From a virus: 24,022 bases of DNA. Positions 4,445 through 20,076 of this stretch are shown here, one piece after another; within the stretch, counting starts at the first letter, position 1, and each line of letters begins with the position of its first letter. A program made the position numbers and the translations under genes. The stretch covers positions 1-24,022 of IMG/VR virus record IMGVR_UViG_3300042453_004544; one strand, written 5' to 3'. The notes below the pieces were generated by a model. It had not been told where the DNA came from. It did no database searches and saw only the letters and a list, made by a program, of their open reading frames with translations.

Positions 4445-5044
4445 ATGAGTAAAATTGTTCGAGAATCTATAGACCGCTTTTTCGACTATGGAATACATGT
4501 CGAAACTCGAACCGTTTATATGGGCTCCGAAGAGTATGACATGGACGGCCTCGAGACCGGAACTGATCATCGAATGGCGGAAAAAATCATCAAGGCAATT
4601 CACATCCTCGGCACTACGCCCGATAAACCAATTAAGATTATCATGAACAATCTTGGCGGAGACTGGTATCACGGCATGGCCATCTACGATGCGATAAAGG
4701 CATGTCCATGCCATGTGACGATTGAGGTCATGGGCCACGCTATGTCTATGGGGTCTATTATTTTGCAGGCTGCAGACGAAAGGATCATTCATCCAAATGC
4801 AACCATAATGGTTCATGATGGATCTGACTCGTTTTCTGGTGATGCAAAGAATTTTGAGTCGTGGGCAAAACAGAGTAAAAAATTACGACAAAAAATGTAT
4901 AAAATATACGCAGAAAGAACAAAGAAAGATAAGAAATACTGGGAAAAGAAATGTGCCATGGATTTTATCATGGATGCAGAACAGGCGATATCCGAAGGAA
5001 TTGCAGACTCTATTGCAGGACTAGAAGATGGAACTGACAGATAG
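4445..5044 (+). CDS. ClpP-like serine protease (candidate prohead protease)
   Basis: A 199-residue ClpP/crotonase-fold serine protease. The nucleophile is Ser101 in GHAMSMGS, the catalytic His124 is in IMVHDG, and Asp173 in MDFIMDAEQA aligns with the ClpP catalytic Asp. The oxyanion-type NNLGGD segment (68-73) is also present. ClpP-like proteins encoded beside portal genes in many phages act as prohead proteases that trim scaffold and head proteins; ClpP-type proteolysis of host or phage proteins is an alternative. The context (portal, MuF protein, scaffold-like protein, capsid) favours head maturation. The ATG lies 13 bases after the tRNA CCA end and has no Shine-Dalgarno sequence, so the message may come from tRNA 3' processing. 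A second, unrelated candidate prohead protease occurs at 8113. Confidence 0.85.
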   Translation: MSKIVRESIDRFFDYGIHVETRTVYMGSEEYDMDGLETGTDHRMAEKIIKAIHILGTTPDKPIKIIMNNLGGDWYHGMAIYDAIKACPCHVTIEVMGHAMSMGSIILQAADERIIHPNATIMVHDGSDSFSGDAKNFESWAKQSKKLRQKMYKIYAERTKKDKKYWEKKCAMDFIMDAEQAISEGIADSIAGLEDGTDR

Positions 5045-8093: not shown

Positions 8094-8104
8094 TATGGTA
8101 TATT
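8094..8104 (+). promoter_or_regulatory. Extended -10 element upstream of gene 8113
   Basis: TGG followed by TATATT (hexamer 8099-8104) is an extended -10 match; the overlapping TATGGT (8094-8099) with TTAACC (8072-8077, 16-base spacer) is an alternative reading. The predicted start, about 8106-8111, is only 2-7 bases before the ATG at 8113, which has no proper ribosome site, so a leaderless or nearly leaderless message is expected. Confidence 0.4.
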
Positions 8105-8112
8105 CATCAGAG

Positions 8113-8793
8113 ATGAGTAAGTTACAAAAAAGCACAGTTATTGAGGGTGTCGCCACCACAAAGGATAAGGACTCGCAAGGTGAGGTTCTTGACCTAGACG
8201 GAGCAGATATCTCTACCCTCGAGCGTGGGGCAGGATTCGTTAATTCTGATCATTCCGGGCGCTTTGAGCATTTGCTTGGCCGGGTAACTTATGCCAAAAA
8301 GATTATGAAAGCAGAAGACTGCGAGACTCCATACCAAGTTAAAGCCTGGTCAAAGTTGCGTAGGCCTTTTCTTGCTACTAAGATGGAACTTTGGGACGGA
8401 GTCGGCCATAAAGAGGCTGACGCAGTCGCTGCAATTTATCAGCACTTCGTCCAAAAGGGTGAAGAGCCACCCATTAAGATCAGCGTTGAGGGGAAGGTTC
8501 TCGAGAGAGATCCTAGAAACAAAGCTGTTCTCAAAAGAACCCTTATCAAGGGTTTGGCTCTAACTGTGCAGCCCGCTAACCAGCACACCATGACCGAAAT
8601 TGTAGGCATGGTGAAAAGTATGGGAGCAGATGCATTGATGAAGAGTGAATCACCCGCTTTTATCGAGTGCGAAGGCAATCCAACAGAAAAGCTGTATCAG
8701 CTTGCGTTGGTTGCTAAGCAGTTGCTAAAAGGGGCGGTGGAGGCAAGAGCCAACACCGTAAACCAAAAAGGTAAAAAGCCCAATAAGGGCTAA
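8113..8793 (+). CDS. S78-like prohead protease
   Basis: Predicted serine protease that cleaves scaffold and capsid proteins during head maturation; 226 residues. Its N-terminal half has the HK97-type layout: a GVATTKDKDSQGEVLDLDG strand pair, the catalytic His47 in NSDHSGRFEHLLGRV, the probable nucleophile Ser124 in IKISVEGKV, and the conserved GLALTVQPAN segment (147-156) that corresponds to the VSLVxxPAN region of the family. The C-terminus is basic. Gene order (protease, small head protein, scaffold-like protein, capsid) supports the role. ATG 8113 is chosen because a -10 element ends eight bases upstream; an in-frame ATG at 8095 would add six residues (MVYSSE) but also lacks a ribosome site. 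Confidence 0.78.
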   Translation: MSKLQKSTVIEGVATTKDKDSQGEVLDLDGADISTLERGAGFVNSDHSGRFEHLLGRVTYAKKIMKAEDCETPYQVKAWSKLRRPFLATKMELWDGVGHKEADAVAAIYQHFVQKGEEPPIKISVEGKVLERDPRNKAVLKRTLIKGLALTVQPANQHTMTEIVGMVKSMGADALMKSESPAFIECEGNPTEKLYQLALVAKQLLKGAVEARANTVNQKGKKPNKG

Positions 8794-9274: not shown

Positions 9275-10060
9275 ATGTCATCTAGCGTTAAAAAAGACGA
9301 ATTGCTTAAGGCAGTAGCAGATGTCCTCGACGAGGCAATTGCTACCTATGAGCAACTCGAAAAAATGGATCTAGACATGAAAGAAGTCGAAGATCCTTCC
9401 AAGGCGAAGAAGTCTGAACCTGAAGCTTCTCCTATGGCCGTTGCTGATGAGGCAAAGGAAGAGGAAGAAGAAAAGGACGAAGACGAAAAAGAAAAAAAGG
9501 ACATGGACAAGGCTTCTCTTCAAATGAAAAAAGAAGAGGATGCCAAAGAAGAAGACAAAGAAGAAGAGCATGAGGATGAAAAGGATGATGAAGAATCAGA
9601 CGACAAACTCATGGCTACTTACAAGTCTTTGGTTTCCAAAATGGAAAAGCGTGGCTTGATCAAGCATCAGGCACAGGATTCCGATGGAAGCAAGTCCATG
9701 AAGAAATCTGAAGCAAGCGAAGAGAAAGAATCTAAGGGCGAAGAAAAAATCGAAGCTCTTAAGAAGTCTTTTGATGAGCGAGTCGAAGATCTTACCAAAA
9801 AAATCGAAGGGATTGCAAAGGCCGTGGAGTCTATCTCCAAGTCCCCAGCAACTACCCGTCGTGGGCTTTCGGGCGCAACTCCGCTTCGTAAGTCTGAAAC
9901 TGAAACCAAGCCTTCTGTATCTAAGCTTGAGGCGCTCGACAAACTTGTTGAGCTTCGCAAGTCTGGAGACCAGAGAGTCGATACCGGGCTTATCACTCGC
10001 CTAGAAATGGGCAAGCTAACCCGTAGCGACTATGAAAGACTAAACAGCATCCTAGGATAA
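9275..10060 (+). CDS. Acidic scaffold-like protein
   Basis: Candidate internal scaffold around which the capsid shell assembles and which is then removed by proteolysis. The 261 residues are extremely charged: residues 40-110 are nearly all Glu, Lys and Asp (for example EEEEEKDEDEKEKKD), then a helical, coiled-coil-prone region (150-190) and a more structured C-terminus ending RSDYERLNSILG, which could bind the shell protein. There are no cysteines or membrane segments. AAAGGAGG precedes the ATG. It lies directly upstream of the major capsid gene and downstream of a protease, which is the usual scaffold position. The charged DNA also yields long antisense open frames, which are shadows. Confidence 0.75.
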   Translation: MSSSVKKDELLKAVADVLDEAIATYEQLEKMDLDMKEVEDPSKAKKSEPEASPMAVADEAKEEEEEKDEDEKEKKDMDKASLQMKKEEDAKEEDKEEEHEDEKDDEESDDKLMATYKSLVSKMEKRGLIKHQAQDSDGSKSMKKSEASEEKESKGEEKIEALKKSFDERVEDLTKKIEGIAKAVESISKSPATTRRGLSGATPLRKSETETKPSVSKLEALDKLVELRKSGDQRVDTGLITRLEMGKLTRSDYERLNSILG

Positions 10061-10091: not shown

Positions 10092-11567
10092 ATGTTTGAA
10101 GATCTTTTCAATGTAGGGCTGAACACCGGGGCTTCACAGTCCATGGATGCTCAGCAAGCCGAGGAGCTAGTTAAGACGCTCCAGATCGGCCATGCCAATG
10201 GGCTTGCAGCCCCTGGCAGTCTAGTAGGTGGAGCTGCACTCGTTGCAGAATCCCTCGACTCGACTCTTAAATCAGTAACTTACGATGCCACTAACCTAGT
10301 GTTTTGGCCGTCTGTTGCTCAGGATCGTGCTTACTCTCTAACCGAGCAGTATGTTCGTACCAATAGCTATGGCGATGGCGGATCTCCGTACATCCCAGAA
10401 AGCGGATCACCCGCAATGAACGATAGCGAATTCAATCGCCATGCACAAAAGGTTGTCTTCATGTCAACCCGCCGTGGTGTGTCGCTTGCTTCTACTCTCG
10501 TTCGCCAGGCTCTCGGAGCCGATCCAGAAACCCGTGAAGCGCAAGCTGGGACTCTCTGGATTCTTGAGAAGCTTGAGCGTGAACTCTATAAGGGACTCGC
10601 TGACTTCTCTAATGCTGGTGAGCATGATGGTGCGATGAGTGCTATTCCTCTCAAGCTCCAAAACCTCAATCTCGCTGGTGCTGAGATCCAGATCGTCCAA
10701 GGCGATTCTGACTTCTCTGCTCAGTCTCGAGCATTTGACGGTTTCGGTGGAGACCGTTCTGTTCTTATCGATAAGGCTGGCGACATCCTCAACGAAGGTG
10801 ACTTCGAAGAGCTTGCCAACATTATCTCTGAGAACTTCGGTCGTCCTTCCGAGTGTCACATGGACCCTAAGACCATGTCTGACTTCATTCGCCAGTTCTA
10901 TCCAAAAGAACGGGTAAACCAACTTGGTGTTGCTGATGGCAAGGCCGGATATATCGTGCGTGAAATGATGACCACCGCTGGTGGCGTTCAGCTCAAGCCG
11001 AATGTCTTCCTCAAGCCGAAGCAAAAATCCAAGTCCCAATCTGATCGTGCAGGCGTTCCTGTCGGAGCCCTTGTACTTTCTGCAGCGGCTGCCGTTGGTA
11101 TTGGAAGCTCCATGAAGGCTGGCGAAAGCTATGCTTATTCTGTAGCTCTCTGCAACGAGCAGGGTGAATCTGTTGCTCAAGACATCGTAGCTCCAGTTGC
11201 TGTAGCTGCAGATGGCGATGGAGTTGATGTTTCTATTACCGATGCTTCCTCTAATGCTACTCACTACGCAGTATACCGTACTGCTGGTGCAGGAGCTGGA
11301 GCTAAGCTTTTCGTCGGTTATGTGAAGCGCACCTCTTCCGGAGCAACCGTTTTCCGTGACAAAGGCCGTAGGTCTCAAGGTGCAGCTCAAGCTTACATGC
11401 TTGATATGCGTCCAGAAATCATGGTATGGCGTCAGCTTGCTCCTCTCATGAAGATCAACCTTGCTCCTATTACGACTGCAAAAGAATTCTTGCTCTGGCT
11501 TGCCGGAACATTGATCATCTTTGCTCCTCGTAAGAGCGGTCTCTTCAAGAACATCGGTCGAGCATAA
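10092..11567 (+). CDS. Major capsid protein with Ig/FN3-like insertion
   Basis: Predicted shell-forming protein of the HK97 fold, 491 residues. An Asp/Gln/Ala-rich N-terminal region is followed by a core with long helices (around 140-170 and 235-275). Residues about 320-425 look like an inserted Ig/FN3-type beta domain: AGESYAYSVALCNEQGES, then NATHYAVYRT, the pattern seen in surface domains of other phage capsids. The C-terminus is hydrophobic (LLWLAGTLIIFAPRKSG). TAGGAG precedes the ATG. Codon use is the most biased in the window: Arg is mostly CGT or CGC, and I found no ATA and no AGA codon on reading the frame, as expected for the most abundant protein. A strong terminator follows 20 bases after the stop. 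Confidence 0.85.
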   Translation: MFEDLFNVGLNTGASQSMDAQQAEELVKTLQIGHANGLAAPGSLVGGAALVAESLDSTLKSVTYDATNLVFWPSVAQDRAYSLTEQYVRTNSYGDGGSPYIPESGSPAMNDSEFNRHAQKVVFMSTRRGVSLASTLVRQALGADPETREAQAGTLWILEKLERELYKGLADFSNAGEHDGAMSAIPLKLQNLNLAGAEIQIVQGDSDFSAQSRAFDGFGGDRSVLIDKAGDILNEGDFEELANIISENFGRPSECHMDPKTMSDFIRQFYPKERVNQLGVADGKAGYIVREMMTTAGGVQLKPNVFLKPKQKSKSQSDRAGVPVGALVLSAAAAVGIGSSMKAGESYAYSVALCNEQGESVAQDIVAPVAVAADGDGVDVSITDASSNATHYAVYRTAGAGAGAKLFVGYVKRTSSGATVFRDKGRRSQGAAQAYMLDMRPEIMVWRQLAPLMKINLAPITTAKEFLLWLAGTLIIFAPRKSGLFKNIGRA

Positions 11568-17005: not shown

Positions 17006-19615
17006 ATGGATAACGAAGTCCAAGAGCTTTTAATTCGTTTGGCATCATCCCTCAAAGAAGAAGATCTTCTGGAAAATCCAGAACTACAAAAACAGCTAGA
17101 AGGCCTTCTTGATTCTGTAGACCCCCAGAATCAAATTCCGCAGGAAGTTGTAGAGCAACTTCAGCAAATTGATGACAAAAAGAAGAGATTCTTGTATGCA
17201 ATGAAAATGCTTCAGGTTACACCAGAGCCAGAAGCAATGAAGGCTTTGGTTGAAGCTATGCAACAGGCCAAGCTCTTGAATCCGGGCATGGTAACAATGC
17301 CTGGACAAGATGAAGAGCAACAGCCACAAGAAGGTGAACAGCCCCAAGAAGACCAACCACAATTTAGCAAATCAGATATATTTAATTTCATTGATTCTTG
17401 CGATCTTCTATTTAAATCATTTATCAACATTGATTTTGACTCAATTGATACTATAGAAGACAGAAATGATAATCTTATCAAGGCCTTTCGGGCCCCCAAA
17501 TTTATTGGCGAGCTTCATCCTCATGAGCCGGATAAAGTAGGCCGACAGCATCCCGGAAGCAAAATACTATCTTGGCATTTAACTCGTCAGGCAGCCGCTA
17601 ATACAGAACAAAGAATTAGCGACAGCATGTATAAGTTTTTGGGAACGATAAAAAGCCCTGTTCACAAAAAGATTCTTGAAAATGCTATATGGAATACATT
17701 GAATTCTCCGACCAGACACTTTACGATTGGCTGGGACAAAAACCCAAATCAGCAAGTTATTCGATCCCGACACATAAGAAACTTGATTGAGCAAATGCCT
17801 TCTGTTAAACTAGATCTATCAGACCCAAACAAGGTCACTATGATCGCTGATAGACATAGAGAGGCGGGTCCTGAAAAAACTAAATGGACCCTAACTGCCG
17901 AAGGAGGGCATCAAAATGGAGAAACCTTTTTTGACAATAACCCAAGTTTTCAAAAAGCAATATCAGGAAGAGGAGCTGGCTGGATTGATGAAATCCATGC
18001 AAGGGAAAGATCCCTGGGCAATGACTCAGGAGGAATTTGTTCTTTTCTTGCAGAGCTATTCAGACATCACAGAGACACAGGAGGAGTACAAAGCACTCCT
18101 GGCTCATCACAGAATCTCTTACTCTTAAAATCACCAGCAGAATTAGAAGAGGCATACTCTAGGGATATTGGCAAATTGCCTGCCTATGAATTTAATCCCA
18201 GAACTGATATTCATATAGCCTCAAACCCGCTCAAGGGCGGGCTATATCACCATGTCTTTAAGGACAAGTCGGATGATTCATTATATCTTCATGCTATCTC
18301 TGACAATCCAGACCACAAGTCTAGGGTTCTTTCTTCTGTCATGGGCAATATTGACGGCAATGCATTGAATGTTGGATGGGCTCATACTAGCAAAGAAAAT
18401 CAAAGCAAAGGCTATGGGCGCATGGCTTATCTTGCAGCTCTACTTCATCACGGAGCAATTCGATCAGACAATTTGGTTAGCAGTAGTGCCGATAAGGTTT
18501 GGAGAGGCCTTAAAGAGAAAGCCCCGGGCGTCCATGTTCGCTTGGGCTCAAAAGAAAGCTATGAAGATAGACATAGCGCAAAAATTTCCAACAAAGATGT
18601 CCTACAAGAATACCTTTCAAAATCCGATGGGAGCCCTAGAAAGCTAGTCCACTATAGCCATCTTCCCGGCCTTACTCGTCTTGACCCCAAATTTTATGGA
18701 ACAGGACATAGAGGTAAAGACTATGCAAGATCCCCAGTCATACCCCGAACATATTATTACCTAGAGGGGACCCAGCCAGAAGATGTGGTTACGAATCGAG
18801 CGTCATACAGATATACCGCTGATATCCCCGAAGGACACAAGGTTTACGATATAGGCGAAGATGCAGATGGGATTATTCGAGAAGCACAGCAAAAGGCAAA
18901 GACTAGGCAAGTAAACCCCGGAGTTTTGACCCCGGAAGAAAAAGAAGGCGCAGTTATGCAGGCCGGATACCACGGCTTTTTTGATTCAACGCACCCAAGC
19001 ATTCCAAATGTAGTGGCATATTTCCATCCTCTCGATGTTCAGCATGCCCCAGAGGAAACAAAGGCAGAATTGAATATGTCCAAATCTTTTTTTGATGAAG
19101 ATGGAGAGCCTCTCGAGAAAGTAGGCGAAGGCTATAAAAAGTTAATGGCAAATGGGATTGCCCTACTTCATCCTGTCACAATTGGTGGACAAAAGATGTC
19201 TCAAGATGGAATTCCATTCCATACGACTATTAAGGTTTTTCATCCAGAAGACGATAGCTTTAGCGAGGCGCATCAGGTAGCTAGCTCTTTAAATTTTGTT
19301 CCACCAGATCCTGAGAAGACTACCGTTAAGCCAATGATCTTCAAGGATCGATTTGGAGATGATGTCCATGTCCTCGAGCTTGGGGGCGATGCTGAAAGAA
19401 TCGTTGAGCATAATTCAGCATTTGCAAATATGGGCTTTCCTGTTAAATACAAGTTCAAACCCCATATAACAATTGACGAGCCAACATATAAAGCCGTTCT
19501 GGAGCAGAATCCTAAAGTGGCCGCAGATCTTGGAATAACCTTCCATGATGCAGAACTTCGCCACGGATACGATACAGTCCAAAACTACCCCTCACAACAG
19601 GCTGAAGAACAATGA
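17006..19615 (+). CDS. Multidomain (polyvalent-type) protein: GNAT-like, ART-like and 2H phosphoesterase-like domains
   Basis: An 869-residue protein, the longest in the window. Residues 1-95 are helical and acidic, followed by a Gln/Glu/Pro linker (99-119). Residues 410-510 resemble a GNAT acetyltransferase: Q466-S-K-G469-Y-G471 is the acetyl-CoA loop QxxGxG, followed by a long helix. Residues 545-680 begin LVHYSHLPGLTRLDP, continue with RTYYYLEG and YRYTADIPEG, and end AGYHGFFD, a layout I associate with ADP-ribosyltransferase-like (H-Y) domains of phage polyvalent proteins; this is the least certain part. Residues 715-855 carry two HxTx motifs, His739 in HTTI and His820 in HITI, the mark of 2H phosphoesterases. 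The promoter predicts a leaderless mRNA. Segment 301-376 overlaps a possible nested gene. A role modifying host RNA, proteins or nucleotide signals is inferred. Confidence 0.75.
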   Translation: MDNEVQELLIRLASSLKEEDLLENPELQKQLEGLLDSVDPQNQIPQEVVEQLQQIDDKKKRFLYAMKMLQVTPEPEAMKALVEAMQQAKLLNPGMVTMPGQDEEQQPQEGEQPQEDQPQFSKSDIFNFIDSCDLLFKSFINIDFDSIDTIEDRNDNLIKAFRAPKFIGELHPHEPDKVGRQHPGSKILSWHLTRQAAANTEQRISDSMYKFLGTIKSPVHKKILENAIWNTLNSPTRHFTIGWDKNPNQQVIRSRHIRNLIEQMPSVKLDLSDPNKVTMIADRHREAGPEKTKWTLTAEGGHQNGETFFDNNPSFQKAISGRGAGWIDEIHARERSLGNDSGGICSFLAELFRHHRDTGGVQSTPGSSQNLLLLKSPAELEEAYSRDIGKLPAYEFNPRTDIHIASNPLKGGLYHHVFKDKSDDSLYLHAISDNPDHKSRVLSSVMGNIDGNALNVGWAHTSKENQSKGYGRMAYLAALLHHGAIRSDNLVSSSADKVWRGLKEKAPGVHVRLGSKESYEDRHSAKISNKDVLQEYLSKSDGSPRKLVHYSHLPGLTRLDPKFYGTGHRGKDYARSPVIPRTYYYLEGTQPEDVVTNRASYRYTADIPEGHKVYDIGEDADGIIREAQQKAKTRQVNPGVLTPEEKEGAVMQAGYHGFFDSTHPSIPNVVAYFHPLDVQHAPEETKAELNMSKSFFDEDGEPLEKVGEGYKKLMANGIALLHPVTIGGQKMSQDGIPFHTTIKVFHPEDDSFSEAHQVASSLNFVPPDPEKTTVKPMIFKDRFGDDVHVLELGGDAERIVEHNSAFANMGFPVKYKFKPHITIDEPTYKAVLEQNPKVAADLGITFHDAELRHGYDTVQNYPSQQAEEQ
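17916..18128 (+). CDS. Possible nested gene in the +1 frame of the 869-residue gene
   Basis: A 70-residue frame wholly inside the larger gene. Support comes from AAGGAGG (17901-17907) eight bases before its ATG, and from a plausible amphipathic helical protein (MTQEEFVLFLQS, then TETQEEYKALLAHHRISYS) with natural codons. In the same stretch the host frame becomes rich in Gly, Ser, Arg and His, as out-of-frame reading often does. Both frames stay open for 213 bases, and the larger gene resumes its conserved domains in its original frame, so a simple frameshift error does not explain it. A spurious frame remains the main alternative. Confidence 0.4.
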   Translation: MEKPFLTITQVFKKQYQEEELAGLMKSMQGKDPWAMTQEEFVLFLQSYSDITETQEEYKALLAHHRISYS

Positions 19616-20076
19616 TCACAAAAGATGAGCTACTGATGGGCAGGGATAAATCCCACCCAAAAGAGTACACAAAAGAAATATCCGATAATTTAGATAATCT
19701 ACTCATTGCGATGAATCAGATAAGGTCTAAATACGGAAAGCCCATGAGGGTTACTTCTGGCTGGAGGCCATCGGCCATCAATCAATCTATAGCAGGAGCT
19801 GCAAAAAGATCCAATCATATGATGGGCTTAGCCGTTGACATTTCTGATAGAGATGGTGAGCTAAGGGAATGGGTTTTAGAAAATCTAGATCTGATGCAAA
19901 AACTTGGTGTTTATATTGAGGATTTTAGATGGACTCAGCGATGGGTGCATTTTCAGATTGTAAGGCCCAGGTCTGGTAAAAGAATTTTCTTGCCATATGC
20001 CGATACCTCAAGGTATCCTATGACTGCGCCTCAAGCGTGGAACGGCAATTATGAATCAAAATATGACTCCCCTTAA
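19612..20076 (+). CDS. M15-family peptidase, candidate endolysin
   Basis: A 154-residue protein of the M15 D-Ala-D-Ala carboxypeptidase / L-alanyl-D-glutamate endopeptidase family, which cuts peptidoglycan peptides, here probably for host lysis or local wall opening at entry. Visible are TSGWRPSAINQSI, the zinc ligands His69 and Asp76 in SNHMMGLAVDIS, an acidic ED pair (103-104), and the third ligand His113 in RWVHFQI. There is no signal peptide, so export would need a holin or the tail. No clear holin is adjacent. The ATG overlaps the previous stop as ATGA. Confidence 0.87.
   Translation: MITKDELLMGRDKSHPKEYTKEISDNLDNLLIAMNQIRSKYGKPMRVTSGWRPSAINQSIAGAAKRSNHMMGLAVDISDRDGELREWVLENLDLMQKLGVYIEDFRWTQRWVHFQIVRPRSGKRIFLPYADTSRYPMTAPQAWNGNYESKYDSP

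Follow-up and report, generated by a model that had tools for sequence, protein, structure and literature searches.

We propose that the 869-aa protein P0001, encoded on a 24-kb sequence fragment from an uncultivated phage, is probably a polyvalent-type internal head protein, for which we predict packaging into the head, dicing in trans by the phrog_1028 prohead protease and ejection. The window, meaning the whole analysed stretch of 24,022 nucleotides, was compared with related phage genomes, and the parts of this proposal with direct support at the sequence level are the modular relatives in the same genomic slot, the GNAT homology, the association of a short motif with head proteins, and the placement of that motif between modules.

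The cargo gene and its domains

The gene lies at positions 17006-19615 (+ strand) as a single intact frame, and we call it a cargo gene on the basis of this frame and its same-slot modular relatives. It begins 56 nt downstream of a peptide deformylase ORF and shares an ATGA overlap with the next ORF, an M15 peptidase gene (19612-20076, +; Pfam Peptidase_M15_3) that occupies the same neighbouring position in the relatives G003 and L013 and serves as a synteny marker. The window further encodes a portal protein, a head maturation protease (8095-8793, +; phrog_1028, E 8e-19), a scaffold-like protein (9275-10060, +, assigned by its position ahead of the capsid gene and by its motif count), the major capsid protein (10092-11567, +; phrog_752), a DnaB helicase, a metallophosphatase and an SbcC-like ATPase. 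The capsid protein belongs to the SPO1 class; the tblastn matches listed (SPO1-like Bacillus phages, an Exiguobacterium phage, Myxococcus phage Mx1 and Bacteroides phages) covered 94-99% of it at 28-30% identity. A second protease ORF, ClpP-like (phrog_94, head maturation protease), is located at 4445-5044 in the head gene cluster beside the phrog_1028 protease. The DnaB-type helicase genes of two relatives (L023:3025-5616 and L007:10577-11983) carry an apparent intein-like insert at the P-loop (…GKCLSADTLIH … FVANGLLTHNSML…), and the window copy is without it.

The sequence-only reading had described a single chain of 869 residues with an acidic helical N-terminus, a Gln/Pro linker and motifs suggestive of GNAT, ART and 2H domains, in an order not known from any described protein. 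The chain, the N-terminus and the linker were all found, as were the motifs QSKGYG (QxxGxG), LVHYS (from residue 547), H739-T741 and H820-T822, and the exact domain order (header, module X, GNAT, ART-like, 2H-like) had no second case in anything searched. The three domain names fared differently when each domain was taken separately: profiles supported the GNAT, the 2H name was left with motif conservation, and the ART name was not supported. The full-length protein had no useful match in Pfam, PHROGs, PDB sequences or 50,697 phage records, and PADLOC returned nothing for it. AlphaFold2 models of both halves had a mean pLDDT of about 48 and were not used as evidence, except for the header helices; Foldseek searches with these poor models gave meaningless matches only, and profile searches of PDB with the ART-like, 2H and GNAT sets gave no meaningful match.

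The header comprises residues 1-95 (17006-17290, +), is modelled as helices with a pLDDT mostly of 55-88, and is 38-42% identical to the starts of three different cargo proteins; against the 992-aa protein of G003, the identity over about 95 aa is 42% (E 3.8e-15). We regard it as a predicted prohead-entry tag. It is followed by a linker rich in Gln, Glu and Pro (residues 96-119; 17291-17362, +), recognised from its sequence and modelled with low confidence, and then by module X (residues 138-375; 17417-18130, +), which is flanked by two predicted cleavage sites and had no relative in searches of Pfam, PDB sequences and other sequence sets. Module X, the motif sites between modules and the relatives with swapped cargo are additions to the sequence-only reading.

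Residues 399-526 (18200-18583, +) are supported as a GNAT acetyltransferase domain by a chain of profiles. This region of P0001 had no direct Pfam match; it matches a protein of Mx1 by blastp (2e-4, against a small set), and the family that it forms with sequences from Mx1, G004 and L013 aligns by hhalign with the clearer GNATs of the same proteins at a probability of 95.7 (E 8.4e-9). The GNATs of Mx1 and G004 pass the Pfam cut-off, and the QSKGYG loop of P0001 aligns with RGKGLG of the Pfam-positive GNATs.

Residues 547-678 (18644-19039, +), putatively ART-like, are 40% identical to the corresponding domain of L013 and also have counterparts in G004 and L027; the H and Y are invariant in four relatives. 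The same domain ends a 1326-aa protein encoded between the terminase and portal genes of another phage, and it is also present in a 4012-aa Nostoc phage protein that is annotated as a 'lysin' and has a beta/gamma crystallin motif. A scan of genome contigs revealed no relative. Judging from these alignments, this is a real conserved phage domain for which the ART label is unsupported. The identification as an ADP-ribosyltransferase was dropped after PF18760 (ART-PolyVal) gave no match and hhalign a probability of 0.1.

The C-terminal domain (residues 717-858; 19154-19579, +) was delimited by alignment with a header-plus-2H protein of G004, to which it is 26% identical, with both HxT motifs (739-741 and 820-822) invariant in these two sequences. 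A search of P0001 with PF13563 gave no match, and hhalign aligned the KPHITI motif alone (E 0.028). The putative 2H identity rests on motif conservation. As in the 2H phosphoesterases ThpR and T4 57B/Acb1, the two HxT motifs are about 80 residues apart and the second has the form PHITI; P0001 differs from these enzymes in having no significant family or full-length profile match.

Relatives and their cargo

The relatives were collected via the capsid protein first and then via the header; the three with a header protein in the corresponding slot all have SPO1-like capsids. In G003, whose capsid protein is 66% identical, the SbcC-like gene and the M15 peptidase gene flank a 992-aa ORF, and beyond the header its product differs from P0001, with a GNAT and, by eye, kinase-like and transglycosylase-like parts and a repeated small domain. 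The L013 protein encoded in this slot is 620 aa long; its header is followed by a pair of GNAT-type domains and by an ART-like domain that shares 40% identity with the one in P0001. In G004 (capsid 52% identical), a 251-aa ORF downstream of the SbcC-like gene encodes the header and a 2H-like domain only; G004 also encodes a 1585-aa protein (GNAT, ART-like, GNAT, NUDIX) without the header. Architectures are thus exchanged among the relatives, with four cargoes in four phages behind one header, which is the sole constant piece. Because the same header precedes different modules, we consider the header to be constant and the cargo exchangeable, in a comparison based on a small number of relatives. 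The packaging or delivery role that the sequence-only reading had suggested for the N-terminus is indirectly supported by this constancy, from which we predict such a function for the header.

Mx1 encodes, between its capsid and tail-sheath genes, a 1479-aa protein (WNM70333.1) that is annotated as a NUDIX hydrolase and contains GNAT, ART-PolyVal and NUDIX domains by Pfam; P0001 has blastp matches to two of its stretches (2e-4 and 0.002, in a small search set). The genomic slot, the domain swapping and these two shared stretches support well the earlier reading of P0001 as a polyvalent effector.

Several observations were made on the genes of these relatives. The Mx1 protein (L010:16405-20844) is a polyvalent protein with a GNAT, a second GNAT-like domain, ART-PolyVal and NUDIX, in addition to transglycosylase-like and ParB-like parts seen by eye, and next to it WNM70334.1 combines a kinase-type domain with a weak match to GNAT. 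The prohead protease of Mx1 (WNM70322.1; L010:5003-8722) is 1239 aa long, resembles phrog_1028 at its start only and has a weak kinase-type match near its end; it may itself carry cargo. The headerless 1585-aa polyvalent-type protein (GNAT, ART-like, GNAT, NUDIX) of contig IMGVR_UViG_3300010938_000004 (L026:2539-8249) has 10 [h]xKS sites; the ORF ahead of it, of 318 aa, shows weak matches to SAM-lyase and GNAT. Directly 3′ of the header cargo gene of L013 is a 635-aa ORF (L013:9818-11725) to which no family was assigned and which could encode another packaged effector. The 992-aa P0002 (L007:3287-6265, - strand) contains two copies, at about residues 455-570 and 880-990, of a small domain whose pattern resembles GW[IV]xPxG[DS][YF], and the domain recurs at the C-terminal end of the 1585-aa protein (L026:3492-8249).

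The [h]xKS motif in head and cargo proteins

The motif [h]xKS, defined as [LIVMFYA]-x-K-S, was spotted by eye first and then tested. P0001 has five sites (1.5 expected), all of them between modules and all predicted from the motif tests to be head-protease sites: K122/S123 (FSKSD; 17369-17374), K137/S138 (LFKSF; 17414-17419), K375/S376 (LLKSP; 18128-18133), K539/S540 (LSKSD; 18620-18625) and K693/S694 (MSKSF; 19082-19087), each on the + strand. The scaffold-like protein of the window has six, compared with 1.3 expected. Over five contigs, comprising the window and relatives of it, 27 sites of the stricter form [h]xKS[ED] or the like were counted in head and cargo proteins vs 3.8 expected, and 5 in other proteins vs 3.6. 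Linkers are in general rich in K and S; nonetheless, the control motifs [h]xSK, [h]xRS, [h]xKA, [h]xES and [DENQ]xKS were near expectation in head and cargo proteins, and [h]xKT was mildly raised (26 vs 16.8 expected).

For a held-out test, we used the portal, protease, scaffold and capsid proteins of SPO1 and the Exiguobacterium phage, neither of which had been used in motif discovery. In these head proteins, KS ranked first among 303 dipeptides following [h]x (35 vs 5.3 expected, z 12.9), compared with rank 124 of 367, and no enrichment, in the other proteins of the same phages. By the same ranking, KS also came first in the head proteins of the window family (36 vs 9.2 expected) and in the cargo set (32 vs 12.2 expected); among the remaining proteins its rank was 64. 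The scaffolds of SPO1 (L037:8186-8920) and the Exiguobacterium phage (L038:8140-8949) have 11 and 13 sites, respectively, as if they were chopped small in head maturation. Among the larger annotated proteins of Mx1, the stricter form [h]xKS[ED] occurred 15 times vs 5.9 expected, 14 of these within the head/structural region at 8.6-39.3 kb, and was led by the scaffold-like protein (4 vs 0.10 expected), the NUDIX polyvalent protein (3 vs 0.32) and the portal protein (2 vs 0.08).

The position of the sites was also tested in six cargo proteins, in which 27 of the 28 [h]xKS sites fall outside recognised domains; these domains account for 44% of the residues, and they contain 30% of all [h]xK sites of the same proteins (P 7e-4 for the placement of [h]xKS against random [h]xK sites). 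Taken alone, P0002 and P0007 are near expectation (3 vs 2.0 and 2 vs 1.4). According to the record of Listeria phage A511, its mature major capsid protein begins at residue 24, after DALK, which is a K/S cleavage. The window capsid protein reads LVK-TLQIG at the aligned place, thus K-T and not K-S, and the head proteins of A511 as a set show mild enrichment (7 vs 4.1 expected). The family phrog_1028 is matched by the proteases of the window, its close relative L003, Mx1, SPO1, A511 and the Exiguobacterium phage; the candidate protease of G004 did not reach it at the cut-off used. Considering these motif statistics, [h]xKS looks like a head-protease cleavage signature of phages with SPO1-class capsids.

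Proposed processing, alternatives and known systems

According to the mechanism that we propose, the header, the only constant part, would direct the chain into the growing prohead, where the head maturation protease, with a predicted [hydrophobic]-x-K/S specificity, would cut at K122, K137, K375, K539 and K693. These cuts would free module X, the GNAT acetyltransferase, the ART-like domain and the 2H-like phosphoesterase inside the head, and the pieces would then exit via the tail with the DNA. By analogy with polyvalent proteins and T4 Alt, as infection begins they might break down RNA or nucleotide signals of the host or modify its proteins, which the GNAT piece could acetylate. We give slightly better than even chances to the broader view that this is a true phage polyprotein system, in which a constant header for capsid entry is joined to exchangeable enzyme modules and the maturation protease of the capsid, cutting in trans, releases these modules as individual effectors for injection.

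The chain might instead be packaged and ejected whole, with the K-S motifs being ordinary linkers or scaffold-binding spots. The virion RNA polymerase of N4 is packaged uncut (PMC5512222), and the header-plus-2H protein of G004, which has zero [h]xKS sites, also favours whole-chain packaging. However, the same motif is the annotated cleavage point of the A511 capsid protein and is enriched in SPO1-class scaffolds and proteases, and we consider packaging of the whole chain to be unlikely. It appears quite improbable that P0001 is an unpackaged, cytoplasmic multifunctional protein of the early or middle phase whose header is an assembly or localisation domain: the genes upstream are indeed replication and repair genes (DnaB, SbcC-like, deformylase), but those downstream encode the peptidase and structural-type proteins, and the head-protease motif and the pattern of header plus cargo better suit a virion protein. 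The slot near structural genes, and profiles that confirm neither ART nor 2H, would also suit a single structural virion protein, such as a neck or internal core protein, in which the enzyme-like motifs arose by chance; the GNAT homology argues against this explanation, as does the change of cargo from relative to relative behind an unchanged header, and we regard it as highly improbable.

Exit of large multi-domain effectors via a narrow tail is poorly understood, and dicing by the head protease, if true, provides an answer for SPO1-class phages. In that case, a header combined with between-module [h]xK/S sites would also be a signature for packaged and injected effectors that family searches have missed in these phages. 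Moreover, the dicing reading predicts the exact mature ends of the fragments.

Iyer et al. (2017; PMC5512222) described polyvalent proteins and likened them to viral polyproteins, crediting release to embedded peptidases of the chain itself; for the 2H domains of these proteins they proposed RNase action or degradation of defence nucleotides. T4 Alt is a precedent for an internal head protein (PMC5512222), and in SPN3US the prohead protease strips propeptides from internal head proteins (PMC10052503). Neither polyvalent proteins nor prohead cleavage are new as such. The literature searched contained no account of a head protease dicing a multi-effector chain, and only in PMC5512222 did the terms 'polyvalent protein' and 'prohead protease' occur together; because of this, cleavage in trans at head-protease motifs that separate effector modules, along with a header that stays constant while the cargo is exchanged, appears to be a new variation on what is known.

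P0001 resembles the polyvalent proteins (PMC5512222) in its putative combination of unrelated enzyme domains in one chain, with a GNAT beside a putative ART-type domain and a putative 2H domain, in its phage structural context with a portal, and in its exchangeable architectures. It differs from them in having no detected catalogued Pfam domain and no recognised embedded peptidase, in its constant header, and in its predicted processing by a separate head protease. The Mx1 protein WNM70333.1 shares with P0001 the GNAT domains, two homologous stretches, [h]xKS sites between domains and a gene position downstream of the capsid gene; it differs in its length of 1479 aa, in its ART-PolyVal and NUDIX domains and in that no header was found. 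T4 Alt and the other internal proteins of T4, in common with the ejection proteins of SPN3US, are located inside the head, are ejected or thought to be so, and are cut by the prohead protease, and the same is predicted for P0001. However, in T4 and SPN3US it is mostly N-terminal propeptides that are removed, whereas P0001 has several predicted sites between its effector modules.
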